From assembly GCA_034620365.1 (NCBI GenBank), contig JAQGEQ010000162.1:248001-312000 (forward strand): 64,000 bases of DNA, in the 5' to 3' direction. The notes beneath the pieces were generated by a model that was not told the DNA's origin, searched no databases, and saw only the letters and a program-made list of their open reading frames with translations. How positions within the stretch are numbered: the stretch's first letter is position 1; every line of letters begins with the position of its first letter. The position numbers were made by a program, and so were the translations under genes. Positions 20,190 to 52,972 of this stretch are shown here, piece after piece. This stretch comes from Pegea sp. RAD2-039. Lineage: Eukaryota > Chordata > Thaliacea > Salpida > Salpidae.

Positions 20190-20281
20190 CCATACAATGC
20201 CACGAAGCTTATAACCTCTAACCTTTCACTATCTCAAGCCTCTTGGTAGCTGGATTACAAGCATATGCCACAACGCTCAGC
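20190..20281 (-). ncRNA. short 5' Alu-domain-like RNA, unit II
   Basis: Copy of the unit I element, apparently base-identical over the Alu domain. Confidence 0.6.
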
Positions 20282-28350: not shown

Positions 28351-28631
28351 GAAAAAGAAATGGGTCCAATCTTATTGGTTAGGCTGTGACACTTGTACTG
28401 ATGTACTGATGGGGATATAGAATATAAGAGACCCCTGTCGAAGAATCAAATTGCAGAGAATTAACTGAGGATATTTGTGGATTTAGCAAGCTAGATAGAA
28501 CTATAGAGAATTATCATAAAGCTGCAAGAATACTCGACAACCATACAGTGCACACAGCTTCTAACCTCATACCGTCCACCATCTCAAGCCTCCTAGCAAG
28601 TGGATTACAGGCGCACGCCACTACGCCCGGC
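28351..28631 (-). ncRNA. 7SL/SRP-Alu-domain-like RNA, about 281 nt, unit II
   Basis: Read on the minus strand, the element begins GCCGGGCGTAGTGGCGTGCG and continues CTGTAATCC, then GCTAGGAGGCTTGAG. This is the 5' Alu domain of 7SL RNA, including the U-turn loop. Near the 3' end, CACAGCCTAACCAATAAG followed by GGACCCAT matches the 3' arm of the Alu domain, and a TTTCTTTTT run suits a Pol III terminator. TGGCGTGCGCC sits where the A box should be; GGTTAGAAGC is a weak B box. Total length equals that of SRP RNA, but the central 150-160 nt show no recognisable S domain (no GGAA tetraloop with AGCA internal loop). It is either a 7SL-derived SINE or a divergent or decayed SRP RNA gene. Confidence 0.7.
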
Positions 28632-29628
28632 GAAGGAAATTTATAAAGTTAATTTTTAAACATTGTTTTTGATGATTATTTTTCTGCTTAAACATTATTT
28701 ACCCAATTTTTTAGCCTATCTTTTAAGAAAACAATTTTAAAAACAGTTTTTATTCATAATTGTTTATTATTAAAAATATTTAACTAAACTTAGTATTTTA
28801 AGTTAATTGAAGTCTGGCAACTATTATTAAATTTGTAAAGTTTTTTTAACATTAAATTTTACCACTAAAATTTAAAGCCTTTTTATGAATCTTTTAATAT
28901 TTTAGCATTTAACATGCATTGGTAAAGTCAATTTTAATTACTGAATTTGGCCAATAATTTTTAATTAAATTCTAATTATATTTAAAAAAAAGTTGATTTA
29001 CTCTGTTTTATCAAAGCTGATATTTTTTCTAACTCTTTTTTATCAATTAATTTCACAATTTAGTTCATTTCACTAAGCAATCAGTAATCACTTAACAATC
29101 TTTTAACCCAAAATTCGTTTAGTATTCCTTCTGTTTAACTTATTCACTATTACTTACTCAATACAGCAATTTTTACACATTTTATGAATAAGCTTGTTCT
29201 TTCTTTTAATAAAAATTTGATAATTAGGTTATTTTGATTTTTACTTATGAATATTATTTACAGTTTAAACTAAAATTAAATTTAACTATTTCTTTCATTA
29301 GATGCATTTTTTTATGGAAATGTCACCTTAACTAGCTTCACTGAAAAATACTAAAGAGTACTTATTACAAAGTAAACTCTAATTTGATTCAATTATTTGT
29401 TTTATTTAGAATCTTCTCATTCATCTGATTCTACGATCATATATAACGAAAAAATCTATACAAGAAAATAATTTCAAAATCAACTACTAAAAATCATTCA
29501 ACGTAACAGTCTTGATAAAGTGAAGTTGGTTTGCTTACATTTTAAATATGCCTTTTGTGTTAAATTAAATGTAAGACTATTTTGTTGACTGAAAAGTTTA
29601 TAAAAATAATTATAGCAACTTGATTCTA

Positions 29629-30018
29629 TTAATTAAAAAGTTTTATTATTAAACAATTAGTATTTGTAACATTGTAGAAATATAATTTCAATAATTTTCT
29701 ACCGTTTGCCTTTGATTGATCAGCCACATTGTTAACCTTGCAGTTAAGAGCTTTCTTAGAAGTTTCAGCAGCTGGAGATGCTTCAACAGGAGGCTTAGTA
29801 GAGTTCTTAGTTGTTTCTTCACAATCTTGGAAATCTTCTCGACCTTGGCTGAAACCTGTTCAAATAAATTTAAATATATTTTAATTTGCTAAATATCAAT
29901 TTCCTTTTTTGTTACGTTTTTTAAAAAGTAAAAAGCAGTTTGAGCCCAAAACCATCTCTTCCTGGCTAATCACCTTCTTGGCCAACAACCTTTCTTCCTG
30001 CTTCACAACATCTTTCAT
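29629..30018 (-). CDS. two-exon ORF of module K, unit II
   Basis: Exon 1 29974-30018 (MKDVVKQEERLLAKK) ends at AAG|GTGATT. Exon 2 starts after TTGAACAG at 29855. In phase it reads VSAKVEKISKIVKKQL and then a Leu/Lys-rich stretch to TGA at 29688-29690, 70 residues in all. A second frame of exon 2 is open even longer (to 29629) and has a more natural composition: SQGREDFQDCEETTKNS, PPVEASPAAETSKKAL. Exon 1 cannot be spliced into it with the donors seen. Differences from unit III are milder in the first frame. Function unknown. Confidence 0.4.
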
Positions 30019-31713
30019 TATGACTTAAGGGACACTTTTCAATCTCTTTTTAAATACAAACAAAATTTTATTGTAAGCTTATACTTAACAACCTCTAAAC
30101 AATTTTCATACAAACTATGTTTTAAAACTAATTAAACTAAAATACAAGAAAAACAATGTAAGATATATTACAAAATATAAACTAACCAAAATTAAGAACC
30201 TAATTATTCATAAATAGTAATACTTGAAATAAAAGTGCTTTAAGTAATAAATATTGAATAAAAGATTATCCAATTGAATGACTTATCAGATACTAAAAAA
30301 GTGTTTGTAGCAATAAAGTTAAATTTTTTTCAATGAAGCTAATAGCCAATGTCAATTGATGTTATTAACAATTTACCAACGAAGTCTAATAAAAATTTTG
30401 ATCAAATGAAAATAATAATTGAATTATTTAATCTGATCCTAAAAGCATTCACACCAAGATACTATAGTGGCTTAGTATAAAACAGAATTCTGCAAGATCA
30501 GTTAGATTAACAAAATTACAGAAGTTCTTCATCTACATTCAAAAATTAAACTAAAAAGATAAAAGTTTAGTAACAATAGTTTGAAAAGAGTGTAAAATGA
30601 CTGCCTAAAGGCAAATGATATAATAATCTTATGTATTGGAATTATAGTATTTTCTTATATTGCATAACAGCAGTTTACATTCAAGAAGGTTTTCACAATT
30701 TTTAATTTTACTAAATAATAGCTAGTTTATATAGTTTTATGGCTATTAATCTACTTTAGATAAAATTGAAAGCTTGCAGACAGGGATAAAACATTTTTAT
30801 TTTCAAGGCGACTTCCTAAAAACTTAGTTTAATTACCAACTTAAAGCAAAAACTTACTTTAAGCATATTTACATCATTTTAATTAAAATTTTAATTGTTT
30901 TCATCCTAAAAATTAATAAGAAATATTTTTTGTAATCAAAAATAGACTTTTGCAAGAAGTTTAATTCGATTTTTAGCAGCCAAAGATTTTCCTGAAAATA
31001 ACGAAAAGTTAAAAGTTTTTAGTTCAAATAAACAATTAAAGTTTAGAAAGTTTATTGTTATAAAGTTGGTAAAAAGTTTATATTCAAATATTATAAAATT
31101 GTTAGTTAATTAATATCGAATACATAACTTAATTATATATTTTGTAAATAGTTTTCATCAAAGTTGATTTGTCAATGTTTCCAGAATTGTCGTTACCTAA
31201 AAACTCTCAAAAGAAAAAACATTGGATATAGAAGAAAATAACTACTTTCAAAAGTTTAACTTGCTGAGATGAAAGGAGTTATTTTAGGTGAGATTGAGTT
31301 TTGATGAAACCGTTTCCCTGATGATAATGACTCAACTAATCAGTCGATCTAGCTGGATTTCAAAAACTATTGGAGGATTCCACTATCAACCAATTTTATA
31401 TTTTGGTTAAGTGGCTGGCCTGCCTTCTAAAATTTAAACACCTTAATATATTAATTAGATTAGGAAGTGATTTAGAGTCAATGGTTTTTCGACCAATTTG
31501 AAGAGAGAACCATGAGACAGTTGTTATGTTTAGATACGCTAACAGTTGTATGCTAGTTGATCATGTGATCAGCTAATGTTGTGTTTATAATTGCAAGATT
31601 TTTATCAGTAGCATAGTAAGCTGATGATTTCTATAGCGCCTCTACTGGTTACTATTGTTTTAGTCGTTATGCTTCGTTGCTTACAAATGATTTCTGTGTC
31701 ACGTGGTTAACAA

Positions 31714-31944
31714 TTGTTTACAAAAACAGCTTCATATGTTATGCCTGAAATAACCAAGTGTTTTACAAGATTTTGTTGCAATAGAAGCAGCGTTTTCGGG
31801 TTGATGAAACATATGATGTTTATGACATCAGCAATTAAAAAAAAGCTTAGAGAAGAGTTTTACATCAACAATGTAATGGGACTAGAAGAAAAACAAATGG
31901 TATCTCTAGTGGAGAGTGCTAGAAGTTGTTGTAGATTGTTGTAG
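31714..31944 (+). CDS. module T plus-strand ORF, unit III
   Basis: 76 codons open, ending SLVESARSCCRLL; no convincing ATG at the start, so if real it is an internal or terminal exon. Shares CNRSSVFGLMKHMMFMTSAI with unit V. Confidence 0.3.
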   Translation: MFTKTASYVMPEITKCFTRFCCNRSSVFGLMKHMMFMTSAIKKKLREEFYINNVMGLEEKQMVSLVESARSCCRLL

Positions 31945-32399
31945 AAGACTTCAGTTGTTGTAGAAATGTTTACTTCCAATGTTAATTCAGAAACTATTAT
32001 AAGAAAATTTCTAATGTCTCATTTAAAGGTTTAGAAATTAAGAAACTAAATCACAAAACATAAAACCGTATCTGTCACTGAATCAGAATACAGTTGTATA
32101 ATTTTAAATGTTTATGAAAATGTAGTTTTATATAATCCTAAAAACTTTAGTCGAACATTTACTCAAAATAATTGTTTTGTTTGTTTTGATTACGAATAAC
32201 AGAAACAATTTAAAGGCCTTTACGGCAGTTTAAGTTTAAAAGAACTTGATCTATGAATAAGAAAGAAAGCGATTTATTTTGTAGTAAGCAAATCAGTTAG
32301 CAATTACAGAAGAGTTTGATTATAGAAAAAATTGGAAATTTTGAACTTTTATACTTGCTTATAGTTATCTTCAGCAAAGCAACTGACAAAAAGATAACT

Positions 32400-33300
32400 T
32401 ACAACAAAGAGTGGTGCTCCGGTTGTCATTTTAGGGAAATAAACTCTCAAAGATCTCATATGTCTTATCAAAAATAGTTCATTAAAAATCTCAAAAAAAG
32501 ATAAAATACCCTCACTATCCAAGTCTAATACACCAATCTTACAAACAATTTGATTATTTTAATAAGTAGCACCGACTTGAAGATTGTGCATGATAATAAC
32601 ATCAAGTATCTATCCACCGACTTGGAATCCAAAGTAAGACTCTCTCGTATGGCTTACAAGCAACAAATGCAAAAATATATTTAAAGTTAGTTGATAAAAG
32701 CTTTGAAAACTTATCAAAGATGATCTTACAAATATTTGAAAGAATAAAGATAAAGATGAATATTTCAAAAGCTTCATCTCACCAACAAGACTTTATGAAA
32801 CGACTTCACGAGAAACGCTGAGAAAATAATTCAAAAACACAAAATTCATCATAATATGATTTTATTAAAGTTTTTCTTCAATATAGAAGAAGTGAAACAG
32901 AAAATCGAGTTGAGAATAAAGTTGTCTTATAATTAAAATAAAAACTTCCCAATTAGTCTTTGCTTTCTCGTTTTTGTTATCAAAGCCATCTTTGTGGAAT
33001 TACAAAACATTATTGCACCTAAAAATTAGTAGATGACATCAACATACTTTTGATTCTACAAATCTTGTTTTATAAAAGATAAACAAAAGTTGTAAAATAA
33101 ATTTTTTGATAAACAATAATCTGTAAAACTTTAGACTAATTCTACACTGATTATTTTTAATCATTATTTTAAATGAGATAAAACAAACCGAATGAGAGTC
33201 TCTCCTAGTATTTCAGTTCTTACATCAGCAACATACTCTTCAGTATTAACAAATTCTGTTGAATTCTTAGCCTTCATTTAATTATAGTTTGTTTAAGCTA
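32400..33300 (-). pseudogene. module T/A: minus-strand exons, unit III
   Basis: The EF-hand-like exon is in frame to the GTAAGT donor (ends FPKMTTGAPLFV). The exon with NSTEFVNTEEYVADVRTE is also open. Unit III is the best A-module copy for testing whether this gene is expressed. Confidence 0.38.
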
Positions 33301-33369
33301 TCGCAATATTCGAGACAAGTTTTTCCCTGTGATTACTCTTGAATTGTTAATTTAAATTCTATTAGATGT

Positions 33370-33680
33370 AAAGGAAAAAATATTTATATGCAACCACAAG
33401 GTCGAAGATAAATGCAGGCAATGGAATGCTATAAAGATGAAATTGTCGATTTGATAAACATGTTTGTGATTATATCATCTGATTCAACAAACTCACATCT
33501 GACTGTAATGTGATTGAGATCTGATGATCGTGGAATTTTTATTTATCTTGCTGTTTTCTTGCTTCATCTGCAGAATCGGTTTGTTTTGGCTCATGAAAGA
33601 TGTTGATTGTCTTCAAACTTCACGTTTGTCTGTAAGGTAAAAACTGTTTGTTAAACTGTTTGTAAACAAACTTTTGTTTT
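33370..33680 (-). repeat. module R, unit III
   Basis: Has an in-frame 3-base deletion (ED-NQHLS), shared with unit V, which keeps both overlapping frames open. Confidence 0.4.
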
Positions 33681-35229
33681 TGTATTCAAAATTTGATAAG
33701 TATTTACAAATTTTCTTTTTAAAAATTTAATTTATTAATTTAAATGTATTCTTTTTAAATTTGACTAACATATCCAGTAATCTTGAAAGCTTATCAGTTG
33801 GGTAACTTAAAATTTTTATAAAAAGTAATGAAAAAGTTTGAACATGGAGCTGATGATATAAATAGTCGAAATGGTGATGTTGTTTTTACTAATTGTTTTT
33901 ATCTTAGTTTAAAACTGACCAGCAACATCAAAATTCGAATATTATGAGAAGAATTTGGATTCATCTATTGTTCATTCACTATCACATCGAAGTAAGAGCA
34001 AGTTCTCCTGCTATTATTTTCTGTATAAATTTAAAAATATTGAATTCTATGAAGAAAAACAATCAATAAAATCAATCACTAGAAAGTGCTATAGTAACAA
34101 ATTACCTGACAAAATTTGCATGGAGATATTTGTAGTATACAACTTCCTATAAGTGTCTTCCTTTAAATCAAAGACTGTCATTATAAAAATTCTCATCTGG
34201 TTGTTTAGTAACAAGCTTATCGTTTAATTTTATGAATTTAATTCTAAAATGACTGATTACAAATATTTAAACAAGTACTATTAGGATTGATTTAAAATAT
34301 AGTTAGAAAAGTTAAAGTAATAAGATAGTATAAGGTTTTCAAATCATTTAGACTTTGTACTTTTCGTTTGTTTTGATATGTTTGCTTATTAGAATAAAAA
34401 TTAGTTATAGGAAACACTGTAATGTTAATATTTAAAAAAAAGATTTTTAAGATGAAAAAATTTGACAACCTGAAAGAAGCTTAGCTCAATTTTTTATCGT
34501 TTAAAAGATCTTTATCAGTATGTCGAGTTTTTCAAATTCGAGTTTGCAGTTTCATTTCATGAAACTGTTGGAAAATAAACTGGAAAAATTTATGAAATAG
34601 TTTTTTATTGATATGTTTGCTTTTGCTTGTATAAGAATAAACAAAATTTTATTAAACTAGTTTTAAAGTTTATCTTAAATTGTTTATTTATTTTAAACTG
34701 AGTGTTTGTAATGTATTTTTTAAGTTGTCGTGTAAGTAGTTAGAAAAATTAATTGAAGTTTTTTTAATAAATCATTTTTCGATTTTTTCGAACTTTATAT
34801 CGTTTTAAGCTTTATTGTAGCTATTACTAACTAGTTTTGAGTGTAACATTAAAATAAATGATTTTTTTTGAAATAAATATAAATACTTTTTATCATAACT
34901 TAAGTACGTTTTTTAATTAATTTTTATTGAAGATAATACAAACTTACTAAAAAATTTATAACTGTTTACTTTATATTTAACTTAAATAAAATATTAATCT
35001 AAAATAATGTTATAAATTTTTAAGACAATAATGCATGTACTCTGAGTTGATAGTAAATGAAAAGAACTTTTCTTCAAACGATAGATTACAAAGTTGATAA
35101 AATTACTGAGAGAAATTTAGGCGATTCAAAAAAATTTTCTCACAGTTTTTCTCGTTAGCTGTCAGGTTGATAAATTTGAATAATTTATTTGAAAAAATTT
35201 TTATCATTTAAATCAATCGAATTTCTTCA

Positions 35230-36181
35230 ATGACTAAAATCACCCAAGATAAATTCTATCTGCTTTCTGCTCTTCGTCGGGGTAGAAGAAATGCCGTGAT
35301 TCCTTCAGAAGAAGAGGAGAATGTAATTCTTTTATAAATGATATTTTGTGACAATTATTATAAACTACAATGGACTATTTTGCTATGTTGTATTTTATTA
35401 AACATTTGTTTAAATGGTATAAAACAAAAAGTAGTTTATAATTTTAAACTATTACAATTTTGATTTAGAATAAAATGAAAAAATGATCAAGTGTAATTTG
35501 TTTGTTAATATACGAAAAGAATTTTAAAGAATAAGTTAGTATTAGGAAGCTAAAATATTTATTCAATTTTACTATTTGCTGCCGTGTAAACTTTAAAATT
35601 AAGCTGTTTGTTGTTTTACTATCAAAAAATAAGTTAAAAATAAACCTAGAAACTTAATTTTTGGATAAAATCTATAATAATCACTAGATTGGTTCGATAA
35701 GCTTGGATGAGTTAAAATGCAATTTATTATCTTGTAGAAATTCAGATATAAAAATGAGAGAAAACAACTCTCTTATCTATTCAAGAGGGATAATTGAAAT
35801 TTAATCTTGAAATCTTTATACAGTTTTTCTTAGAATTTGACATTTTAAGATATTTTATTTTCTATGCAAACTCAATTATTACAAACTGACTTTTCTTTAC
35901 TAAAATGTTTCGATTGTAGTTTTACTTCATATTAAATATCTAAAATCAATATTTTTATTTTAGAAGATTCAACAGCTTCTGCTGAAACTTGATAAATTCA
36001 ATCTTGAAACCACACAGGAGGAGAAAATCACTTCAATGAATAATGACAAGCCCAAAGCAAAGTGAATAATTTTCAAAACTAATTTTTGAATTGATTATCA
36101 TTTTATTTAATTTCCAGAAAAAGAAAAACTGAAGTTAATCAAAAGGTTTCCAGTTTTCCATCATCATTTTCATCAACATAA
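35230..36181 (+). CDS. cAMP-dependent protein kinase inhibitor (PKI-like), 3 exons, unit III copy
   Basis: Exons 35230-35322, 35964-36061 and 36118-36181 join to an 84-residue protein; all introns are GT-AG (donors GTAATT and GTGAAT, acceptors TTTTAG and TTCCAG) and the frame closes at a TAA. Residues 16-23 read RRGRRNAV. This is the PKI pseudosubstrate pattern: Arg at P-6, P-3 and P-2, Asn at P-1, Ala in place of the phospho-acceptor, and a hydrophobic P+1. Residues 36-45, LLLKLDKFNL, occupy the same place as the leucine-rich nuclear export signal of vertebrate PKI (LALKLAGLDI). A basic run KPKAKKRK (60-67) could be a nuclear localisation signal, which vertebrate PKI lacks. Vertebrate PKIs are 75-78 residues, so the length fits. 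Expected role: inhibit free PKA catalytic subunit and export it from the nucleus. A Phe is at residue 9, but strict alignment puts Leu11 where PKI has its key Phe10. Family assignment is strong; activity is inferred. Confidence 0.8.
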
Positions 36182-36411
36182 TTTAATGTAAGTAATTAAC
36201 TAATTTTTTGAAATGTAAAATAAATAAATAATTAATCTAAAAAAAGTAATTATGTAGTTGAAAAAATTATTAGAATTTTGAGAATATTTTGAAGGTTGTT
36301 AATATATTTGGTTGTCTTTCTAAAAGTCTGAAATAAAATCTAACAAAAAAATTTGTAGACAAAAAGATTGAAAGATTAATTTACGATAATGTCTGTTTAT
36401 ATGACGCTGAG

Positions 36412-36419
36412 TGACGTCA
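36412..36419. promoter_or_regulatory. palindromic CRE (TGACGTCA) 3' of the PKI gene
   Basis: Perfect CREB/ATF full site 231 bases after the PKI stop codon, preceded 10 bases earlier by a half site (TGACG). Binding is inferred. Its position next to an inhibitor of PKA suggests cAMP feedback. Confidence 0.45.
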
Positions 36420-37070
36420 GCAAAACTTTCTGACATTTCCTTATTGTTTGTTTTTATTACGATATTGCATTTAGATAAACTTCTTAAGAAATATTAAAAT
36501 CAATTTTTATTTTTAAGAAAGTTCCTTCAAAATTTGTTAACAACTTACTTTGACAGATTAATTAGACGACAAAATCTCTCAAATGAAAATTTTATATTCT
36601 GGAAAACTTCACAATATTAGTTGATTTGTTTTTAGAAAATATTTTAACAAATTAATTAAGCAACCCGAAGTATTACAAAATAATTCTTAAAAAAAAGTAA
36701 TATTTTCTACTTGTGTTTAGATATTTTCAGAAGTATTTTGATATGATGTTTTTATAAAGCTATACTAAAGTAATTTAAAAATAGTTTGCAATAAAAGTTT
36801 CTTTTTTGAGATAAAATTATTCCTTTTGATTGACAATTCTTTCGTTTTGTATATTCTGCTTTATGTTAGGTTTTTGTATTAACTTTTTTGTTTTAGTTTT
36901 TTCGGAAATTTTTTGATTTCAAATAAATAAGACTAATTTATTTTTTACTGTTTTATGTTAATCTATGTAGTTAGATTACAATTAATTTAGGTATACAGCA
37001 GTTGATGTAGCATGAAAGTTATTTAGTTGATCAATTAGATTACCTGTTTGTAAATTCATTTATTGAACTC

Positions 37071-37193
37071 ATGGCCGCGGTTGACAATTTCAATAACTCG
37101 TATGGCGGAAAAAAACCAAAGTTTTACGACAATTTGACAACATTCAATTTGAGATTGAATTTTCGACAATCAAACTTTGTATTAAGCTGCTAG
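37071..37193 (+). CDS. conserved 40-codon ORF starting MAAVDNF, unit III
   Basis: ATGGCCGCGG opens a frame that runs 40 codons to TAG: MAAVDNFNNSYGG, then KKPKFYDNL and a tail ending NFVLSC. It stands out because the first 40 bases are far more G+C-rich than anything around and include CpGs, as in a constitutively active first exon. The unit V copy keeps the same frame and differs by one residue. It lies about 0.9 kb after the PKI stop on the same strand and could be a separate short gene, a first exon (a GTATTA donor-like site lies near its end), or an alternative exon. I recognise no family. Confidence 0.5.
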   Translation: MAAVDNFNNSYGGKKPKFYDNLTTFNLRLNFRQSNFVLSC

Positions 37194-38213
37194 TATAAAA
37201 AGCAAGAACTTCTTAATCTTTATTGTACAGCAATTTGGCATAAAATTTATATAAAAGAAAGGATAAAAGTTTACAGTTGCTTCAGAGAGATTTCTTGGTT
37301 GATCTACTTTCATATAGAAATTGTAATCGTTTTTTTTAGTTTCTTCATTTTGTAACAAAAATTAAATTTAAAAACCAAATTGATTGGTACTAATAGATTA
37401 TTTGGAATCTATTACTAAATATTTTCTTTAAGAAAAAACGGTTTGTTGGATGTCTGTATTTGATTGAGATCAGATTTTAATTTTCATCGATAATTTTAAT
37501 ATGATCAGTTAACTTTAGATGGCAAATTAAATTTTAAATTAGACGAAAAGTAATATTTCTCTTCTATTCATTTTCTTTTCTATTCTATTTATTTTTATTA
37601 TATTCTATTTCTATTATTTTCTATTTGATAATATCTAAGTTAATGGATCAACTCTTTTCCAGTTAGTCTAGTTAGTTTTTGGTTAATCATTTTTTGAACA
37701 TGTTGATGTTTTAGTATTCTGGACTATGTTGGAAAACCTACCTTTCTTCACAAGTAAAAAATTCCAAAGGATGAAACATCACTGTAAATCTTCATCATGT
37801 GATTTCTCAAATTGTATTCAAAACTTTTGATCCAAATATTATTTGTTTTTTTAAATCTAAGATTAGTTTGAGCTTTTTGTTTCTACAAGTTATTCGTAAA
37901 CAATTTTGACAAACTTTCAAATTGATGTTGCGCAATGAATGCACCTACTTGTTTATTGATTTATTTGATGTATTCTTTCATCATTAGCCGAAAAAATTAT
38001 TTTCAAACTTCTCTATCTCCCATCTTCAAAAGCTTTGTAGATTTGACAATTTTTGATTTCATCTCAGAAGTTGTGTTTTGTAACTCACACTTGTTCATTG
38101 AGAATGCATAAAAGAAAGATCAAAGTTTTTGTTTGAAAAACTTTAATATAAATTATTCTCATTAATTATTTGTTATTCTTTTAACTACATGATTACAGTT
38201 TCTTTTTAATCTT

Positions 38214-38216
<3 letters not shown>

Positions 38217-38251
<35 letters not shown>

Positions 38252-38267
38252 TATCATCATCATCATC
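38217..38267 (+). repeat. (CAT)n microsatellite
   Basis: About 17 ATC/CAT triplets with one ATT interruption, in the part of unit III that has no counterpart in unit V. Confidence 0.9.
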
Positions 38268-38715: not shown

Positions 38716-38989
38716 AGAAAAAGAAATGGGTCCAATCTTATTGGTTAGGCTGTGACACTTGTACTGATGAGGATATAGAATATGAGAGACCCCTGTCAAA
38801 GCATCACAATGCAGAGAACTAACTGGGGATATTTGAGGATCTAGCAAGCTAGATAGAACTATAGAGAATTATCATAAAGCTGCAAGAATACTCGACAACC
38901 ATACAGTGCACACAGCTTCTAAACTCATACCGTCCACCATCTCAAGCCTCCTAGCAACTGGATTACAAGCGCACGCCACAACGCCCGGC
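38716..38989 (-). ncRNA. 7SL/SRP-Alu-domain-like RNA, about 274 nt, unit III
   Basis: Starts GCCGGGCGTTGTGGCGTGCG on the minus strand, with GTAATCCAGTTGCTAGGAGG and the same 3' arm and T-rich end. It lacks a few bases near the 3' arm (a CAGTACAT repeat unit) present in unit II. The Alu-domain loops are unchanged while single substitutions scatter elsewhere. Confidence 0.68.
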
Positions 38990-39987
38990 GAAGGAAATTT
39001 ACAAAATTAATTTTCAAACTTTTTCTTTGATGATTATTTTTCTGCTTAAACATTATGTTTCAAATTTTTTAGCCTATCTTTTAAGAAAACACTTTTAAAA
39101 ATAATTTTTATTCATAATTGTTTATTATTAAAAACATTTAACTAAACTTAGTATTTTAAGTTAATTGAAGTCAAGAAACTATTATTAACCTTGTAAAATT
39201 TTTTTAACATTAAATGTTACCACTAAAATTTTAAGCCTTTTTATGAACCTTTTAATATTACAGCATTTAACATGCATTGGTAAATTCAATTTTAATTACT
39301 GAATTTAGCCTATAATTTTTATTTAAATTCTAATTATATTCATAATAAAGTTGATTTGCTCTGTTTTATTAAAGCTGATATTTTATGTAACTCTTGTTTA
39401 TCAACTAATTTCACAATTTAGTTTATTTCACTAAGCAATCAGTAATCACTTAACAATCTTTTAAACCAAAATTCCTTTAGTATTCCTTCTGTTTAACTTA
39501 TTCATTATTACTTACTCAATACAGCAATTTTTGTAAATTATATTAAAAAGCTTGTTCTTTCTTTTACTAAAAATTTGATAATTAAGTTAATTTGATTTTT
39601 ACTTATGAATATTATTTACAGTTTAAACTAAAACTAAATTTAACTATTTCTTTCATTAGATGCATTTTTTTATGGAAATGTCACCTTAACTAGCTTCACT
39701 GAAAAATACTAGAGAGTACTTATTTTAAAGTAAATTCTAATTTGATTCAATTATTTGTTTTATTTAGAATCATCTCATTCATCTGATTCTACGATCGTAT
39801 ACAACGAAAAAATCTATACAAGAAAAATAATTTAAATATCAACTATTAAAAATCATTCAACGTAACAGTCTTGATAAAGTGAAGTTGGTTTGCCTACATT
39901 TTAAATACGCCTTTTGTGTTAAATTAAATGTAAGACTATTTTGTTGACTGAAAAGTTTACAAAAATAATTATAGCAACTTGATTCTA

Positions 39988-41622: not shown

Positions 41623-41642
41623 AGCTGATCATGTGATCAGCT
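41623..41642. repeat. inverted repeat AGCTGATCA-TG-TGATCAGCT
   Basis: Nine-base arms with a 2-base spacer in the T module of unit IV; shorter or imperfect in the other T copies. Confidence 0.6.
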
Positions 41643-42429: not shown

Positions 42430-43370
42430 GAAATAACTTACAACAAAGAATGGTGCTCCCGGTGTCATTTTAGGGAAATAAACTCTCAAAGATCTCATAT
42501 GTCTTATCAAAAATAGTTCATTAAAAACCTCAAAAAAAGATAAAATACCCTCACTATCCAAGTCTAATATACCAATCTTACAAACAATTTGATTATTTTA
42601 ACAAGTAGCACCGACTTGAAGAATTTGCATGATAATAACATCTAGTATCTATCCACCGACTTGGAATCCAAATTAAGACTCTCTCGTTTGGCTTACAAGC
42701 AACAAATGCAAAAATATGTTTAAAGTTAGTTGATAAGAGCTTTGAAAACTTATCAAAGATGATCTTATATATATTTCAAAGAATAAAGATAATTATTTTA
42801 AAAGATTCATCTCACCAACAAGTCTTTATGAAACCACTTCACGAGAAACGCTGACAAAAAATTCAAAAACACAAAATTGATCATAATATGATTTTATTAA
42901 ACATTTTCTTCAATATAGAAGAATTGAAACAGAAAATAGAGTTGAGAATAAAGTTGTCTTATAATTAAAATAAAAACTTCCCAATTAGTCTTTGCTTTCT
43001 TGTTTTTGTTATCAAAGCTATCTTTGTGGATTTACAAAACATTGTTGCACCTAAAAATTAGTAGATGACATCAACATACTTTTGATTCTACAAATCTTCT
43101 TTTATAAAAGATACACAAAAGTTGTAAAATAAATTTTTTGATGAACAATAATCTGTAAAACTTTAGACTAATTCTACACTGATTATTTTTAATCATTATT
43201 TTAAATGATATTAAACAAACCAAATGAGAGTTTCTCCTAGTAAATCAATCTTTACATCAGCAACATACTCTTCAGTATTAACAAATTCTGTTGAATTCTG
43301 AGCCTTCATTTAATTATAGCTTTCCTAAGCCATCACAATATTCGAGACAAGTTTCTACCTTGTGATTGTG
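42430..43370 (-). pseudogene. module T/A: minus-strand exons, unit IV
   Basis: The EF-hand-like exon runs to the donor as FPKMTPGAPFFV; KVETCLEYCDGLGK is present near 43340. The equivalent plus-strand T-module ORF is disrupted by a deletion near 41905. Confidence 0.35.
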
Positions 43371-43389
43371 ATTGTTAATTCCAATTAAA

Positions 43390-43720
43390 TTAGATGTAAA
43401 GGAAAAAGTATTTATATGCAAATGAACCACAAGGTCGAAGATAAATGCAGGCAATGGAATGCTATAAAAATGAAATTGTCGATTTTGATAGACATGTTTG
43501 TGAATAAATATTCAATTCAACAAACTCACATCTGGCTGCAATGTGATTTAGATTTGATGATCGTGGAGCTATTATTTATCTAGCTGTTTTCTTGCTTCAT
43601 CTGCAGAATGGGTTTGTTTTGGTTCATGAAAGATGTTGATAAATATCTTCAAACTTCACGTTCTACTGCAAGTTGAGAGAACTGTTCATTAAACTGTTTG
43701 TAAACAAATATTTTGTTTTT
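43390..43720 (-). repeat. module R, unit IV first copy
   Basis: Overlapping frame FINIFHEPKQTHSADEARKQ intact. Confidence 0.4.
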
Positions 43721-44746
43721 GTATTCAAAAATTTATAAGTATTTATAATTATTTTGATGTTTTGTAAATAAATCAATAACATTTTCTTCAATCTAAATAT
43801 AAATTTCGAATTTATTTAAAATTTGAGAAAAAAATTGTAGATTTTGTGTTTTTTAAAACTGAAATAATTGAAATCAGGAAAAATTTTATTTGTGATTTAA
43901 AGCTGTTTAAACAGTTATACAGGTTTATCTTGTTAGATATGGTTTAATTTATATACTCTAGCAATTTTCTTTGAAAATTATAATCATAAAATTAATAGTT
44001 TAGTTTTATTTCAAATCTGTTCGTTGATATTAGATGTTTGCTGGGGTTTTTCAAGATAAAATTATAATAGGACTTCATCAAAACAACAAATATTTTTAAT
44101 GAAAATCAATGAAACCTGAATAATCTACAGCAACTGAAAAATGTTTAGATTTTCTCTGGTTGCATTCGGACATTCTCATCAGCTGACATTTGTCTAAATT
44201 GTCATCTGAATCTTCATTTTCCACCAGATAGTTTAAAAAAGTTGGAAATTTGACCAACAAACTCAGTAATTTCGAATTTTGAAGTTTTATTTAAAGTTAA
44301 TCAAATGGGTAACCAAAACTTTTATAAAAAAGTAGCTGATGATATAAATAATCGAAAATGTAATGTAGTTTTTACTAAGAGTTTTTTTTAGTTTAATACT
44401 GACCAGCTTCTTATAGAACATTTAGAAGCAGTTTAAATAAATATCTATTACTAACACGACTTTTAGATTCAATATTAATTTTAATCTAAATGAATAATCA
44501 AAACTGTGTTCATAGAAAGTAATAACAAATATACAATTCAGTTTTGATCTAGAGTTAAGTAATATAAAATGTAATTGTTCTTTAAAAAATCTTAAAAATA
44601 ATAAAAGTGATAAAATATTAATTATATCTATGTATATTTACAAAATACACTTAAATAAAAATCAAATTAAAATATTTATCATTATATAAATAATTTTATA
44701 AACAAAATAAAACAAACAGTGTGTATATATTTGATCAACATACATA

Positions 44747-44838
44747 CCATACAATGCCACGAAGCTTATAACCTCTAACCTTTCACTATCTCAAGCCTCT
44801 TGGTAGCTGGATTACAAGCATATGCCACAACGCTCAGC
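44747..44838 (-). ncRNA. short 5' Alu-domain-like RNA, unit IV
   Basis: Same short element 0.3 kb downstream of the unit IV PCGF remnant, unchanged in the Alu domain even though the adjacent gene has diverged. Confidence 0.6.
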
Positions 44839-45123
44839 GAATGTGATTTTTCAAAATATTATTTAAAGGCAAAGTGTTTTTTTTATATAATCTTCTCTTT
44901 CGAAAGTCACTTTTCAAATATTGATCAACTAAAGAAATAAAAGAGAAATGAAACAAAATTTAGTTTTGTTTGTTTACAAAAAACATTTACAAAAACATCA
45001 CATTTTTTCGATTTAGTAACCAGTTTGTTCGATGTTCTTTTTATCATGTGTTTTGCATGCCACAGTTTGAGGTGTTACATTTTTTCAAATAAGTTTACTT
45101 ACAAATGGTTGTTTTGAAACTTT

Positions 45124-45624
45124 CTAATAAGCGTTTGCTTCCATATGGGTTTTTGAAGAATGAATGCTTGTATTCATTTCTTCATCTCCTATCAATTCTT
45201 CGTTCTTGCGAGTAAATTTCTTCAAAATTTTAGGATTTAAAGGTTTTTTTGAGTTGTCAACAGAAGAGGTTATATTAAAGTCACTTTCATTATTTGTTTT
45301 ACTACACTCAGATGTTTCTGATGCTATTTGTGTTGACATCATGGAAGAAGGTTTAACCGATCTCGGCTTATATTGTAATTTCCAGACTGGAATCGGCTTC
45401 TTTTGCAACGCCCTTAAGGAAGATGTGCTTAAGGTCGATTGATTCTTGTCTGTTTTGTCACTATTAAATAAGTTTTCCTGTGACAGGACACCACAACTTT
45501 TTCCAATATAATTATATACTTGAAAATCGGGAGACTGATAAATTTCATTCTTATTTCTTTGATTTTTATCTATTTCTAAAAGAGATGTTATCGCTGACTG
45601 TATAGTTTCATTTGTCTGAGACAT
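45124..45624 (-). CDS. C-terminal PCGF tail, longest intact frame
   Basis: Open for 166 codons in unit IV, starting MSQTNET and ending HMEANAY. Rich in Ser, Thr, Asn and Lys, with no membrane segment, consistent with the disordered C-terminal extension of insect Psc/Su(z)2-like proteins. That comparison is by composition only. The same stretch in units I and II is split by a TAG and a frameshift. It may be only the remnant of the longer gene. Confidence 0.45.
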   Translation of the reverse strand: MSQTNETIQSAITSLLEIDKNQRNKNEIYQSPDFQVYNYIGKSCGVLSQENLFNSDKTDKNQSTLSTSSLRALQKKPIPVWKLQYKPRSVKPSSMMSTQIASETSECSKTNNESDFNITSSVDNSKKPLNPKILKKFTRKNEELIGDEEMNTSIHSSKTHMEANAY

Positions 45625-47106
45625 ATTTAAAGCACTCGTAGAAGCATGATCTGAAGTTGATACAGAGGTTTTCTCATCAGAATTGTGGGAAGAAAATGTT
45701 TCAAAGATGTTTTCTTAGTTATTCAAACTTGTGTTCGGAGTATTGTGCCCAAAATTCGTTGCACAATGATTGGATGAGTTGTTGTTTGTTTTTTACAATT
45801 CGATAGAAACAAAACATCTTTGATTATTAACCTTTTTTGTCGTTTTTGTTCAAAAATTAGGGACTTCACTGTTTCTCGAAAATTTTGAATAATCATGCGC
45901 TCATTATGCATTGATGATCGTTCTTTTTTCATATAAAATGTAAATCATTGTTAAGATATTCCTCATTGCACTCCAACACCACCTTTTGTTAAAACAAATA
46001 ACTTTTAAACCTTTTTTTCCAAACCAATATTTCTACTTTAACATAATTATAAGTTAAAAAGATACAAAACATGAAGATTTAAAAGTACACAAACTTGACT
46101 TAATTTATTCAGTGGAGTTAAAAACAATTATAATTTGTTTATATACTTAAACTTTCATTTGTTTAACAAACGTTAGATATAGTTTAGAAAATCGTTTGTA
46201 TTTTCTATGTCACTTATTTTAAATAAATACTTTTGAATCTACATTTTAAAAGTGCATAAAAGTATAAAATAATTACTTGAGTAGAGGTTTCCCGTCTATA
46301 TACACTTTCTAACTTGGTAAAAACAAGTTATTTAACTGATCTTACTGAGCTATGTTGATTAATAATGATTTTAATTGGATCAATCTCGGGAATAATCTTT
46401 ACAAAATGATTGTCCTCAACTTCATTGAGGTTGCTACAACAAAAACTATTTTTTGATGAAATGAATTTTTTAAGAATAAATTTAAAAACATACACAGCTA
46501 TATAATTGATAAAAAGAAATTTCTGATTAAAAAAGTCAACACAAACATTTTTCAAACAAAAGTAATTTTATAATCACCTAGTTAAATGTTTCACTTTCAA
46601 AGTATAAGCTCTGCAAGGATCTTCAGTAAATTCTAAGGGAAAAAAATATTGTAAAATTTAGATGAAAAAAAGATTTTTTTACAAAACGTTTTTTTTACCT
46701 CCTTGGCTTATCTGTGGATATATTTTTAATATATCTACAATCAGCCTTTCTAATTCTCTGTCCTCAAGAAATGGTTTGTCAGCATGATCATACATTATAT
46801 GATGGCAGGTGGGAAATGATAAATCGGTTTGAAGATGGTCTTCAATACATTTCTTACAAACTAAAACGAGTTAAAAGTAAATATTTCTCTGTTAAAAATA
46901 TTTAAAAAAGAGATTATTATATAAATAACCACTTAAAGAAACATCCTTACAATAGTGAAGACATGTTTTCAAAACCTTAACTTTGTACAGGAAGGATTTG
47001 CAGATATTACAATTGATAGTTTTTAGTATGAATTGATCAATAGACGTTAATTTGTCCATGTTTTTTTCTCATTAGATGAGGACTGAATCCAGGACAGATT
47101 CTGCAA
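45124..47106 (-). pseudogene. PCGF-type RING + RAWUL gene, unit IV copy, damaged differently
   Basis: Exon 2 (46699-46860) here is full length, 162 bases: the 13 bases missing from copies I and II are present and the frame runs through CKKCIEDHLQTDLS into PTCHH. The C-terminal region (45124-45624) is one open frame where the other copies have a stop. This copy has its own damage: the initiator ATG is AAG, the RING Cys before Pro is Phe, there is a TAA at about 45717-45719, an indel frameshift at about 45790, and about 100 bases are deleted at 45952. That deletion removes the end of the RAWUL exon and the following intron. It is the best template for the ancestral frame in exon 2 and the tail. 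Confidence 0.7.
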
Positions 47107-47999
47107 CTTGTTGCTTATCAAAAGGATATATTTGACAAATTAATTTATAAGTTAAACAATTTTATTGTTTTTAAAATTATTTTGACTCATTTTCATGATT
47201 ATACAATAAACATTGTATCCTAGATACTAAAGTTTTAATTTTGTCTCAAATTATCGTGAATTTTGAATTTAACACTAAAATAAAATATAAAAAGGTTTAG
47301 TAAAATAAAAAACGGATATTTAAAAATAAAATATTAAAAGTTAGTTACTTTTTTGCTGAACTTCGGGTTATCACCATGATTCAAAAGTTTCTTTTAACTA
47401 AATAGTTAAAATTGTTTGTATAAAGTTTGGCAGAATACCTTTTTCTAAAAATTATATTTTTCTGTAAAATTTTTACTCTTTCTTTAAACAGTTTCAGTCA
47501 TTTAAGCAAACTTTTTACCTCTTATTTCTTCCAAAGAATATGTTGCTTCTGTTACTCGAAGCAAATGTTAAAACAGATGAGAAAATAAGAATATTTCTTT
47601 TTGTTTATTTGCAATTGCATGTTATCTTCAAACTATAACTTTTTCTGTTGTTTGTATCTATTGGCAAATGGTCCATCACAAAAAATAATTTCTTATCGAT
47701 CCAAATTTTTCAACTATTTGAATACTTATGGAGGGTTAACTAGATAAGGTAATTATGAATATCAATAGTAAATTACTGTATAGCAATTATTTCATGCTAA
47801 TTTATATTTTAACCTATTGAACAGCTGAAACACAAAAATGTTTTGAGTACAACTACTAAATTGAAACTACATTACTTCTAATTTTTATAAGCTGTCACAA
47901 ATCAAAATTTAGCACAAGAAATACTCCACATTAACATGAGTTAGATAAAAATGTTTGGACTTAAATCATTTTGTTTTCAGCAGAATATTTTAAACCTTG

Positions 48000-48581
48000 T
48001 GAAGAAAGCACCAGAAAGATTCAAAACTGAATAACAAAAGTAACAGTCAAGAAATTGTTGATGAAGATGAAGATGATGAGGATTTGGTTGTAAATGTTTC
48101 TGGTATTAGTTACAAAGGTGACATTGAAGATGTTTTTGAGGAAGAAGAAAAAATTAAAGGTTGAAATACAGATCTATTAAATATCTTATTTATAATTGCT
48201 ACGAACAAGCATAAAACATCTAATAATCAAAGTAACTGCAAACTCAAACTTATTATTAATCAGCATTAACTTTTTCTAACATAAATTCTTCAAAACAAGA
48301 AAAACAAATTGGAAAAACAACCGGAAAAAGTGATAAAAATTAATTTTGTTTTTAAACAAAAGCTTAAATAAACTTGATTTATAAATAATTTGTTTGCAGC
48401 TGAAGTCTTAAAAGAGTCAAGTGAGGAGAATTTTAAAGATCAAAAAGATATTAGAGTGAAGGAGGAAGTTAAAGATGAAAAAGATTTTAAGTTAAAATGG
48501 AAACTTGAAAGTAAAAGAAAATTCCTGTGTGGCCGATTTAAAAAAAATTCAAACATGAATAAAATTTTTAGATCTTTTTAA
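48000..48581 (+). CDS. acidic/charged two-exon ORF, unit IV
   Basis: Longest version: the second exon runs AEVLKESSEENFKD, then QKDIRVKEEVKDEKD and KLKWKLESKRKFLCGR, to a TAA at about 48579. The first piece ends at a TGA just after EEEKIKG, where the other copies read through. The alternating Lys/Glu pattern would form a charged helix. No known domain seen. Position upstream of the PCGF gene and divergent from it is the same in all three units. Confidence 0.35.
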
Positions 48582-50090
48582 CTAAAGGAAACTCACGATT
48601 AAAAGATCTAAAGAAAGTCATTCTGATATGATTTTAATTTAAGAACATATATACTTACTGTTCATGAAAAACAAACACTTTTCACTTGCTCAAAATATGG
48701 AAGTTTTTTTTGCACAGAAAGATAACCTTAACCAAAATATACAAAAAGTTTATCAACATGTAACCTATGAAATGATTAACTTATAATCAAACATTACGAA
48801 AAAAGTTTTGTATATCATTTCAAAAAGTCATCTTCATAAGAAGTAGAAAGATTTTCTCCAGTATTAATCAAAGAACAAAACCAAAGTATTCATTTGGCCA
48901 ACAGGTGTTGTTCTGGTTTATAATTGAAATTGTCACCTTAAAATCTGCGCAACATATCAAAAACCGGATGAAATTATGCAATTGACAAATACAAAAGCGT
49001 CAAAAATGCTCAAATCTTATAAAATATTTCTGTTGATATAAACACTATACTTTAAGGTTTTTAATTAAAGTTATTCTGTTTTTGAAATTATTTTTTTGAA
49101 GTTATATTGTGCTTTTGAGTCATAATTTACTTTTTTGAGTTATACAATCAACTATTAGTAATAAGTAATATTATTTAAACAGACTTTTAGATCAGTCTCA
49201 CATTTAAAATTAGTAAAAATTCTCAGACAATTTAACAACAAATTCCATTTTATCTTTTGAATTCAACAAATTCTTAAAGATAAACACGACATTTTATCAA
49301 TAATAACTGTGCCTCAAGTTTTCTTGAAGTTTCTTCAGTATTTATATGAATGACGTAAAATTATTCTATATAAATACAACCTTCAGAAAAATTAATGGTT
49401 CTTGCCAAACACTCTGGTGGTAAAACAGTTAATGTTCAATCTTTATTAGAATCTGTTAATTTCTGACTTAATCAACAGCTAGGTACAAATTAAAAATTTC
49501 TACCTCTCGACAAATAAACTTCCAACATTTACTTCAACTAATTTTTAATTAGACAAAAACAAAATTTCTCATTATCAATTCATTAAAGACTTGATGATCT
49601 TTATCTCTCACTTAAGTTATTTACTGATAATTGGTTCATCTACTTTATAAAAAATTCACAAATCTTTTAAGAGCAGAGAGATATGGATACTCCCTCCTAA
49701 GGTCTTCACTTTAAAAAAGCTCTTTTAAATCTTCAATCCATTCTAAGATCATTTATCAGGAAGACTCCACTTAAAGAAAAGCATTGATTATTAGAAATAA
49801 ATGTTTGATCAATTTATTCATAAATGCTAAAAACGTATTTTTATGGTGACTTTGGTAGTTGACCTTTCATACCAAGAATTAAAATGAATTTAAATTTTTT
49901 TGAGACGTCCATCTATTTTGTAGAAGTTAGATTTATTCTTATGTTTTATTGTTCATTAACATTTTACTGATTTTATAAATCTCTTGTGGCACCCACAAAC
50001 GCTAAACTTTAAATGGTTAATAAATACAGTAAGGAGACTGTCTCCTTACTCTCATCATCTCAGAAGATCATAATTTTTGGAACCGTCGAA

Positions 50091-50165
50091 ATGGCGGTGT
50101 ACGAAAAATATAAAATTAGAAACTCACTTAAAAGTACAATAAGTGTAAGGCTGATTGTCTTTTAA
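50091..50165 (+). CDS. short ORF starting MAVYEKYK, unit IV
   Basis: Same 24-codon ORF as in unit II, with one Lys to Arg change. Conservation of the frame in two of three copies is the only support. Confidence 0.35.
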   Translation: MAVYEKYKIRNSLKSTISVRLIVF

Positions 50166-51129
50166 ACGTGCTGGCTAAATATTTTACGTGTTTCTTCTGC
50201 TGTCTTACAATTATAAAAGCAATTTTATAATAAATTACATAAAATTGTAGCTGTTTATGAATTTTTTTCTTGTTTCATGAAATTATATATTCATTATATA
50301 ATTCTTTTGCAATTCAACTTTTTTGAGGATGTGAAAATGAAGATGACTCCCTGGTTGGGTCATTGTCAGTGTCGGCATCATTATTTTCAATACCCTGATT
50401 ACTAATCACCGAAAAATTGTTTTGTTGAATTCAAACAATCAAAAGACAATGAAGACGTCACAACTGACGTATACGGCGTCATCTTCTTATATTTGTTTAG
50501 AAAAGGTTCCTCGCTCAGTTTAACTTAAAGTAAATTATATACATTTCATAATCAAGCTTTTTCTGGCTTATACTTTTAACTTCTAAAATTAAGTTTTGTT
50601 GATTTGTACTTATGAGCCAAAGATACCAATTAAACTGAATTGAAAGATAACTCAAGAACTCATTAATTGTAGTTTTATTATTACATTTAGATTTAGCAAA
50701 AACTCACAAAAGTTTAGACGAATTTCACAAGATATACACAGAAGATACTAAATGAAATTAATTAAATGAGCTTCTTTTACTTTAGCTTTGATTACATAAA
50801 AATTTGTTCATAAATTCCCTTCTTTCACTGATAACTATTACATAATTTCTAATATACAGTAAACACTAAATTTAATTCAATTATATGTTTTATTTAAATA
50901 ATTTTCTAATTCATCTGATTACATCTAATTATACGATTGTATACAACGAGAAATCTATACAAAAATTCAGTTCAACATCAAATAATAAAATATTACACAT
51001 ATACGAAACATAAAACCTCATTTGCTATTCCAATGTACTCGAATTTTTTTGGTCAAGCATTAGTTAATACACCTTGTCAAAAAAATACGTTTGTCCCAAC
51101 TTTTCTGTAAAGACACTTTCAGTAGTAGT

Positions 51130-51460
51130 GTATCAAGGTAGAATGTAAGACTTGAAGGAAAAAAAGTATATGCAAATGAAAGACTGAAAATAAAAATGAC
51201 AAGATGAATGTTATAATGATGGAACCATCGATTATAGCAGACAAATTTGTGAATGAATAAGCTATTGCAACAAACGAACATCTGGCTGCAATGTGATTGA
51301 GATTTGATTAGCGTGGAACTATTATTTATCTAGCTGTTTTCTTGCTTCATCTGCAGAATCGGTTTATTTTAGTTCATGAAAGATGTTGATAAATGTCTTC
51401 AAAATTCACGTTCGTCTGCAAGTTAAAAAAACTGTTTGTTAAACTGTTTGTAATCAAATT
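51130..51460 (-). repeat. module R, unit IV second copy
   Basis: TNVNFEDIYQHLS-type frame intact; the longer frame stops at FHELK, as in unit I first copy. Confidence 0.4.
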
Positions 51461-52691
51461 TTTGTTTTTGAATTCAAAATTTGATAAGTATTTCTAATTA
51501 TTTTGATGTCTTGTAAATAAATAAAAACATTTTCTTCAAAATAAAGATAAAAATTAAAATTATTTAAAAATTAAAAACAATTTGTGGAATTTTTGTTTTT
51601 AAAACTGAAATAAGTGAAATCAAGAAAAACTTTATTGGTCATCTCAAGCTGTTTTCTCATTTGGTAAAATCAATATTAGAAAACAAATGAACGTTTGATA
51701 AAAAACGTTTATTATCGGATCACAAATTTTTACAATTATTACAAAAATCATTTTATAAAAGTTTCTTGGAGTCTTAAATCAAAAAGCTTTTATTTATTTC
51801 AAGTTGAATTATATATATTTACTTCTAACAAAAATAACTTTGCAATAACAAAGTAACAACATGAAGAGGACTGCATCAAAACAACAAATATTTTTAATGA
51901 AAATCAATGAAACCTGAATAAACTATAGCAACTGAAAAAACTTTAGATTTTCTCCTGTTACATTCAGAAATTCTTATCAGCTGACTTTTGTTTAAATAGT
52001 TCAAATATCTTCATCATCTACCTGATAAGTACGATCAAGTCTTAACAAACAAATCTATTAATCTTTTATTTACAAAATACCTGATAATTACCAGATTTTA
52101 AAAAAAAATCTCATTGGTGAAATCTTTAAGTTTGCTTCAAATCTTAGAAAAAGATTCGTAGATATCAGAATTCTGCTGGAATCTATAAATATAAAGAAAA
52201 CTGCAATAAACCAATAAATAATGTAAATGATATCAAATTGAACTAACCTGAACAAACAACAGCAACTGAAAAAACGTCTGATTTTATCATTTTGTATTTA
52301 GACATTCTCATCAGCCGAGATTTGTCAATCAAGTTCAGATCATCTCTTATTAGTTACAAAAGCTTTATATTTGACCAACAAACCCAGTAACCTTCAATTT
52401 ACAAGTATTGTTTAAAGATAATCAGTTGTGAAACTCAAAATTTTTATCAAAATTTAAACTTGTAGCTGATGATATAAATAGTCAAAAATGAGATTTAGTT
52501 TTTGCTAAAAATTGTTTATTATTTGAAACTGACCAGCAAAGTTCAAACATTAGGAAAAAAATTTGGTTTCTTCGCTTCTCTATTCAAAATCTCATCGAAG
52601 TAAGAGTAAGTAGTTGTACTCTCATGTGACCTACAAAACTCAAAATGTAGGATTCTGTGAAGAAATTTTAAAAATTACCTTTTTAAAAATA

Positions 52692-52972
52692 GAAAAAGAA
52701 ATGGGTCCAATCTTATTGGTTAGGCTGTGACACTTGTTTAGATATACTGATGGGGATATAGAATGTAAGAAACCCCTGTCGAAGCATCACAATGCAGAGA
52801 ATTAACTGAGGATATTTGAGAATTTAGCAAGCTAGATAGAATTATAGAGAATTATCATAAAGCTGCAAGAATACTCGACCACCTTACAGTGCACACAGCT
52901 TCTAACCTCATACCGTCCACCATCTCAAGCCTCCTCGCAGCTGGATTACAAGCGCACGCCACAACGCCCGGC
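52692..52972 (-). ncRNA. 7SL/SRP-Alu-domain-like RNA, about 281 nt, unit IV
   Basis: Third full-length copy: GCCGGGCGTTGTGGCGTGCG, then TAATCCAGCTGCGAGGAGGC at the 5' end and the CACAGCCTAACC arm at the 3' end. The left flank matches unit II, not unit III. Confidence 0.68.

Follow-up and report, generated by a model that had tools for sequence, protein, structure and literature searches.

The window studied here is a stretch of 64,000 nt from Pegea sp. RAD2-039, comprising bases 248001-312000 of contig JAQGEQ010000162.1 (C72) in an assembly of 105.7 Mb and 387 contigs (GCA_034620365.1); its local G + C content is about 26%. Here we report three copies of a small RNA gene in this window, which resemble the gene for the RNA of the signal recognition particle (SRP RNA, or 7SL RNA) and belong to a multicopy family with an Alu domain and no recognisable S domain. 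A scan with cmscan (cut-off E ≤ 0.01) returned exactly three matches in the window, all to Metazoa_SRP (Rfam RF00017) and all on the minus strand (Table 1); the gathering score of this model, 70, was passed by copy 1 alone. Both arms of the Alu domain matched the model in all three elements, and in the alignment of copy 1 the middle was skipped, which bears out a first-pass annotation that had described a normal Alu domain and an unrecognisable S domain. The length range given there, 274-281 nt, was nearly right: two elements fall within it and the third is slightly shorter.

Within the elements, nt 1-87 were assigned to the 5' Alu arm and the final 41 nt to the 3' arm; the sequence between them is called the insert. 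In copy 1, the outer portions of both arms were aligned by cmscan at high posterior probability, and the central 140 nt were skipped (local mode). Comparison of the same copy with canonical SRP RNA by blastn gave 88.9% identity over nt 1-81 and 90% over the last 40 nt; between the arms only chance-level matches of 8-9 nt were obtained. The 3' arm is followed by a T-run in the copies read. In human 7SL RNA the A box lies at nt 6-15 and the B box at nt 76-86 (PMC7245038), positions that fall within the 5' Alu arm of the window elements.

Table 1. Coordinates of the SRP-like RNA genes, their parts and neighbouring features (position 1 is the first base of the window).
Feature	Position	Strand	Remarks
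Type-1 SRP-like RNA gene, copy 1	28354-28631	-	278 nt; Metazoa_SRP 70.6 bits, E 1e-15, Alu arms only
Type-1 SRP-like RNA gene, copy 2	38720-38989	-	270 nt; 64.6 bits, E 5.7e-14; 92% identity to copy 1
Type-1 SRP-like RNA gene, copy 3	52695-52972	-	278 nt; 64.8 bits, E 4.8e-14; 93% identity to copy 1
5' Alu arm of copy 1 (nt 1-87)	28545-28631	-	blastn match to canonical SRP RNA; low divergence between copies
Insert in place of the S domain, copy 1 (nt 88-237)	28395-28544	-	no closer to the canonical S domain than shuffled sequence
3' Alu arm of copy 1 (last 41 nt), then T-run	28354-28394	-	90% identity to last 40 nt of canonical RNA; CCCATTTCTTTTTC
Conserved upstream block of copy 1, putative promoter element	28668-28694	-	starts at -63; 27-nt string identical across class A
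Conserved upstream block of copy 2	39026-39052	-	exact match to the 27-nt string
Conserved upstream block of copy 3	53009-53035	-	exact match to the 27-nt string
Type-3 element (decayed, 5' arm only)	2457-2544	-	80% identity to type-1 5' arm over 86 nt
Type-3 element (decayed, 5' arm only)	20189-20276	-	similarity to type-1 5' arm
Type-3 element (decayed, 5' arm only)	44746-44833	-	similarity to type-1 5' arm
Duplicated serine- and asparagine-rich coding region	2839-3657, 20571-21389, 45127-45944	-	two copies identical over 540 nt
RING-finger-like fragments, perhaps of Polycomb group type	22464-22718, 46682-46870	-	weak; each fragment tested singly

A count of genomic copies, proposed in the first-pass annotation, showed the family to be multicopy; all counts are lower bounds. 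A genome search with a window element recovered at least 30 long matches and one fragment on contig C22 (best 40 of 70 candidates), and a search with the insert of these type-1 elements found 31 places, every one a type-1 copy (31 of 31 candidates scored), of which 22 are on C72, six on C282, and one each on C280, C189 and C22. Type 2, with a length of 261-262 nt, occupies 16 places (nine on C72, five on C282, two on C280; 16 of 16 candidates scored), and the four loci scanned all exceeded the cut-off of 70 bits (81-83 bits). Type 3 consists of decayed 5' arms only, for which no convincing 3' arm was found, at 16 places or more (ten on C72, three on C282, three on C94; best 40 of 61 candidates); its three copies in the window were absent from the first-pass annotation. 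All listed copies sit on six contigs, and many are truncated or partial.

The 30 long type-1 matches were divided into class A (21 full-length copies with a common upstream sequence), class B (three full-length copies with a different upstream sequence; L026, L029, L030) and class C (six copies that begin at nt 16; L032, L033, L035-L038). The isolated partial copy on C22 (L081:2921-3116) covers element nt 35-230 at 95% identity, with both ends missing, and its flanks match nowhere in the window. Solitary arms also occur: L026, L029 and L030 each carry a second, type-1-like 3' arm (around 2775-2834; 55 nt at about 91% identity) some 1 kb away from the element, and a type-1-like 5' arm near a class-C copy (L033:2257-2339; C72:394577-394659) covers nt 5-87 at 97.6% identity to the class-A consensus.

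The canonical SRP RNA, which the first-pass annotation had likewise proposed to locate, is encoded by four complete genes, three on C258 (263.4 bits each) and one on C1 (256.5 bits), in all of which the S domain is aligned along its whole length. The existence of these four full-score genes shows that the window elements are not the SRP RNA itself and refutes the earlier alternative, in which the S domain of the SRP RNA was extraordinarily derived. Since the four genes keep the full S domain, the organism has not lost this domain, which is missing from an additional family. The elements might still be a working variant SRP RNA, with an S domain diverged past detection by the model, since they share the layout of SRP RNA and have a similar length. 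An S domain with the SRP54-binding helix 8 was not found in them, however, this part being left unaligned by the Metazoa_SRP model, and the role of SRP RNA is already served by the four canonical genes. When the inserts were compared with the canonical S domain under four scorings, 76-240 of 300 shuffles scored as high as the type-1 insert. The type-2 insert was marginal, with 9/300 shuffles as high under plain global, 38/300 under transition-tolerant global and 17/300 under tolerant local scoring, and 243/300 under plain local scoring. An origin of the insert as a decayed S domain is thus unsupported for type 1 and marginal for type 2, and we consider a working variant SRP RNA very improbable.

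The insert is pyrimidine-rich and measures about 150 nt in type 1 (142 nt in the short copies) and 134 nt in type 2. The inserts of the two types align end to end with 86 of 130 positions identical (66%). Under transition-tolerant scoring, this alignment was equalled by none of 3000 random window segments and none of 637 composition-matched ones, and by 0/300 (global) and 2/300 (local) shuffles. The comparison indicates that the two inserts are distantly related and stem from one ancestor; a tie to the S domain is not clear. The two types resemble each other upstream of the RNA as well: only 4 of 1000 random window segments scored as high. Over nt 1-75 the 5' arm of type 2 matches the canonical C258 gene at 98.7% identity, yet the inserts are only 66% alike; great divergence has thus affected the insert and not the 5' arm. 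Copying of the insert from elsewhere in the genome, or an antisense relation to a gene, was rejected, since DNA searches with both inserts (E ≤ 0.001; all 31 and all 16 candidates, respectively, were scored) matched only their own family; within the window no convincing source was found. The motif UUCU occurs five times against 1.8 expected in one insert (p = 0.02) and seven times against 1.7 in the other (0 of 2000 shuffles), an enrichment picked after viewing the sequence and therefore a lead only.

The first-pass annotation had also raised the possibility of a 7SL-derived short interspersed element (SINE). A SINE1 family of independent origin outside vertebrates would fit the 7SL-derived head, which includes the A and B box positions, the SRP-RNA length, the one fragment on the otherwise unrelated contig C22, and the downstream homology, which in 127 of 274 type-1 and 65 of 120 type-2 pairs breaks off no more than 100 nt past the element; these stops might be explained by AT-rich divergence or breakpoints. 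In half of the type-1 pairs (137 of 274) and in 91 of 120 type-2 pairs, however, the upstream homology runs for 1.4 kb or more, and 46 of the 47 type-1 and type-2 copies are confined to four contigs. Dispersed copies with unrelated flanks were not found, except for the C22 fragment, which has neither end, and for downstream flanks that are often unalignable beyond 100 nt. A search for empty sites with class-A flanks found none in the sequence searched. The 3' end consists of the SRP 3' arm and a T-run; neither an A-rich nor a simple-repeat tail was visible on inspection by eye of the downstream sequences of 26 of 30 type-1 (excluding L015, L017, L019 and L027) and all 16 type-2 copies. The SINE proposal is therefore unsupported, and we rate it as highly unlikely. 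Members of SINE1 (Alu, B1 and hagfish SINE1-1_EBu) have likewise lost the S domain and kept the Alu domain (PMC7245038); the present family differs in having neither wide dispersal nor a visible tail, SINE1-1_EBu alone counting 2363 full-length insertions (PMC7245038). The available part of a report on one rotifer genome mentions SINEs and contains no occurrence of 7SL (PMC6555955), and another rotifer has large, copy-variable tandem satellite regions with raised GC, unlike the present cluster (PMC8447722).

The 5' arm diverges far less between copies than the DNA around it. When the comparison was limited to type-1 pairs whose flanks could be aligned for 300 bp or more on each side (100 of the 274, class-B loci included), the 5' arm diverged by 0.006, the upstream flank by 0.058 and the downstream flank by 0.073; in the type-2 pairs so filtered (51 of 120) the corresponding values were 0.004, 0.054 and 0.037, with 0.020 in the insert and 0.026 in the 3' arm. 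Over all 120 type-2 pairs the 5' arm diverged by 0.007, versus 0.054 and 0.036 in the flanks, and between class-A copies (208 of the 210 possible pairs) by 0.018, versus 0.066 and 0.077. The flanks thus exceed the 5' arm by a factor of about 4-12 in intact type 1 and 5-13 in type 2, and of about 2 when class B is counted.

Because such pairs are not independent, variable columns were counted too. In class A, 5/66 columns vary in nt 1-66, 34/142 in the insert and 7/41 in the 3' arm; upstream, the numbers are 2/30 in the block at -65 to -36, 12/35 at -35 to -1, 12/34 at -100 to -67, 25/100 at -200 to -100 and 38/99 at -300 to -200. Nucleotides 1-66 are less variable than -300 to -200 (p = 4.7e-6), -200 to -100 (p = 0.004) and the insert (p = 0.004). 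In type 2, 2/66 columns vary in nt 1-66, 1/21 in nt 67-87, 9/133 in the insert and 4/41 in the 3' arm, and upstream 4/30 in the block, 2/35 at -35 to -1 and 3/34 at -100 to -67, that is 9 of the 99 scored columns at -100 to -1, versus 38/100 and then 55/100 further up; nt 1-66 are less variable than both of the latter regions (p = 3.1e-8 and 1.5e-13). The conserved unit is hence about -100 through the RNA end in type 2, and nt 1-66 plus the block near -63 in class A. At nt 33 and 35, which are C and A in the canonical genes, class-A copies have T (20/21) and G (21/21), respectively. Selection is the simpler account of the conservation of class-A nt 1-66, because T33 and G35, which conversion from canonical genes would erase, persist and the upstream block is conserved as well.

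The Alu arms retain the canonical fold. At 31 Alu-domain pairs taken from the canonical structure, standard pairing was found in 615 of 651 class-A and 494 of 496 type-2 cells, and G13, G14, C36 and UGUAAUCC are invariant across the 39 sequences read. At pair 70/-28 the C258 gene has G-C and the C1 gene G-U; A-U stands there in 20/21 class-A and 16/16 type-2 copies, a double change with respect to the C258 gene. Consensus folding extends helix 5, with columns 74-88/237-250 paired in type 1 and 74-85/223-233 in type 2. Two type-2 copies folded better than their shuffles (z = -2.6 and -2.4; canonical RNA, z = -3.8). The genome has one match each to SRP14 (E 7.9e-22) and SRP9 (E 8.1e-4), both over the curated cut-off.

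Upstream of the RNA, the same 27-nt string stands at -63 in 21/21 class-A copies and in 0/9 class-B and class-C copies; the upstream regions of type 3 and of classes B and C were not significantly like that of type 1 (57-173 of 1000 random segments as high). A small nuclear RNA promoter of the U6 type was rejected, since the U6 genes carry a block of their own and the type-1 upstream is no closer to it than random window DNA (seven upstreams read, of 13 genes over the cut-off). All seven (L087, L089-L094) have in common a strong block, ACAAACNCTAAACTT, together with a TATA-like box, which make up an snRNA-type promoter for RNA polymerase III (Pol III) in this genome. The idea that type 1 avoids TTTT under selection was discarded (p = 0.09 in single-base and 0.52 in dinucleotide shuffles); it is contradicted by type 2.

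Of the first-pass annotation the description of the Alu and S domains stands; of its two readings, that of SRP RNA itself falls and that of a SINE is unsupported. The observations agree better with a third reading, in which Alu-domain RNA genes were amplified into a family. With a probability of roughly 0.57, judged from sequence, we read the elements as an amplified Pol III gene family for Alu-domain ribonucleoproteins (RNPs) with a replaced specificity region, which would act on the ribosome in the manner of BC200-type RNAs.

A number of observations weigh against this reading. Pair 72/-30 is broken in 21/21 class-A copies and pair 71/-29 in 6/21, and no compensatory (double-sided) pair changes occurred within either type. 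For two type-1 copies the predicted fold was no more stable than that of shuffled sequence (z = -0.5 and +0.6). In the 100 filtered type-1 pairs, divergence reaches 0.044 in the insert and 0.047 in the 3' arm, nearly the flank rate, and over all 274 type-1 pairs, class B included, the 5' arm (0.034) differs only twofold from the flanks (0.066 and 0.078). By variable columns, the class-A 3' arm is indistinguishable from the 5' arm (p = 0.21), its pairwise divergence being near that of the flanks, and the type-2 5' arm is indistinguishable from the insert, the 3' arm and the promoter region (p = 0.07-0.61). Nucleotides 67-87 of class A, the expected site of the B box, are variable (6/21). The control with copies that differ upstream gave a mixed outcome: relative to the class-A consensus, the three class-B copies diverge by 0.118 in nt 16-66 and not at all in nt 67-87 or the 3' arm, and the six class-C copies by 0.010 in nt 16-66. 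The upstream block is unlike the upstream regions of canonical SRP or U6 genes. TTTT, a possible early Pol III stop, lies inside the transcript in 16/16 type-2 and 4/21 class-A copies. The relatedness of the two inserts is weaker under plain scoring (7/3000 random and 6/637 composition-matched segments as high; 4/300 shuffles in global and 37/300 in local alignment). Gene conversion, finally, could mimic part of the 5'-arm conservation.

The near-flank divergence of the type-1 insert and 3' arm, the poor folding of type 1 and the many truncated or partial copies also favour the alternative that the elements are non-functional pseudogenes derived from SRP RNA that segmental duplications have passively carried along, the 5' arm having stayed uniform through gene conversion or by chance. 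The window is indeed a mosaic of duplicated blocks (about 81-99% identity), and in the adjacent duplicated coding region each of the three copies has a stop where another copy continues, so that the small RNA arms are conserved within decaying, duplicated DNA. This alternative, which we regard as possible if somewhat doubtful, is opposed by the lower variability of class-A nt 1-66 and of the upstream block relative to the DNA above them. Conversion from canonical genes would have erased the two class-A bases at nt 33 and 35 and could not protect an upstream block that is unseen in canonical genes; conversion among the class-A copies themselves could nevertheless have taken place.

In the preferred reading, that of an Alu-domain RNA gene family, the ancestor would be an SRP RNA gene whose copies retained the Alu domain, set on an elongated helix 5, and had the S domain replaced by a pyrimidine-rich insert of about 135-150 nt. 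The family would have spread chiefly by segmental duplication of its array and not by retroposition. Transcription would be by Pol III, with putative internal boxes and the upstream block as promoter and the T-run as terminator. A proper Alu domain without an S domain is expected to bind SRP9/14, to reach the factor site of the ribosome and to read no signal peptide. The RNA would then bind SRP9/14 through its Alu domain, and because the docking of this RNP at the factor site would lack signal-peptide reading, the outcome may be translational repression or competition with SRP. The insert, a pyrimidine-rich loop on a firm stem, might confer target specificity through a bound protein or through base pairing. 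That a constant ribosome-binding head with a fast-changing specificity insert, in a decaying and expanding cluster, marks a translational regulator shaped by genetic conflict, for example a selfish or dispensable chromosome region or its suppression, is a further idea that we hold to be improbable.

The remainder of the window offers little that can be classified. A Pfam search with 86 open reading frames (85 non-redundant of 163 with at least 55 amino acids, plus one) gave nothing better than E 0.002, and the duplicated serine- and asparagine-rich region had no weighty Pfam match. The RING-like fragments matched Pfam zf-C3HC4_2 at E 0.027, under its cut-off, and a PCGF1 chain in the PDB at E 0.086, below a designed protein at E 0.00015. 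Searches for COX1, for the arthropod cuticle domain (a weak negative, since no control genome responded either) and for a bdelloid spliced leader yielded no match; in the rotifer Brachionus plicatilis a trans-spliced leader was likewise not found (PMC1925144).

The family resembles metazoan SRP RNA (RF00017) in the sequence and fold of the Alu domain, the length class and the T-run end, and differs from it in lacking a recognisable S domain, in being multicopy in one duplicated cluster and in having another upstream block. Alu-domain RNAs derived from 7SL RNA exist outside SRP as exapted RNAs such as BC200. They are also known from vertebrate SINE lineages (PMC7245038). The Alu domain of BC200 binds SRP9 and SRP14, and this RNA has been implicated as a translation inhibitor (PMC6265466); its transcription needs internal boxes and about 100 bp of upstream sequence (PMC5537265). 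BC200 is the nearest working analogue: it and related Alu-derived cytoplasmic RNAs of primates share with the present family an Alu-domain head on a non-SRP body, but the present family has its extra sequence inside helix 5, keeps the 3' SRP arm, comprises many copies and is, as far as seen, not derived from a retroposon. Among the top-ranked matches of literature searches there was no invertebrate family of Alu-domain RNA genes. The dozens of copies in the cluster have the half of SRP RNA that brakes the ribosome, with unrelated sequence in place of the half that reads signal sequences, and seem to represent a separate origin of regulatory RNAs like those that primates derived from Alu. If this is true, recruitment of the Alu RNP would not require retroposition, given an invertebrate in which gene duplication produced a multicopy Alu-domain family under constraint.

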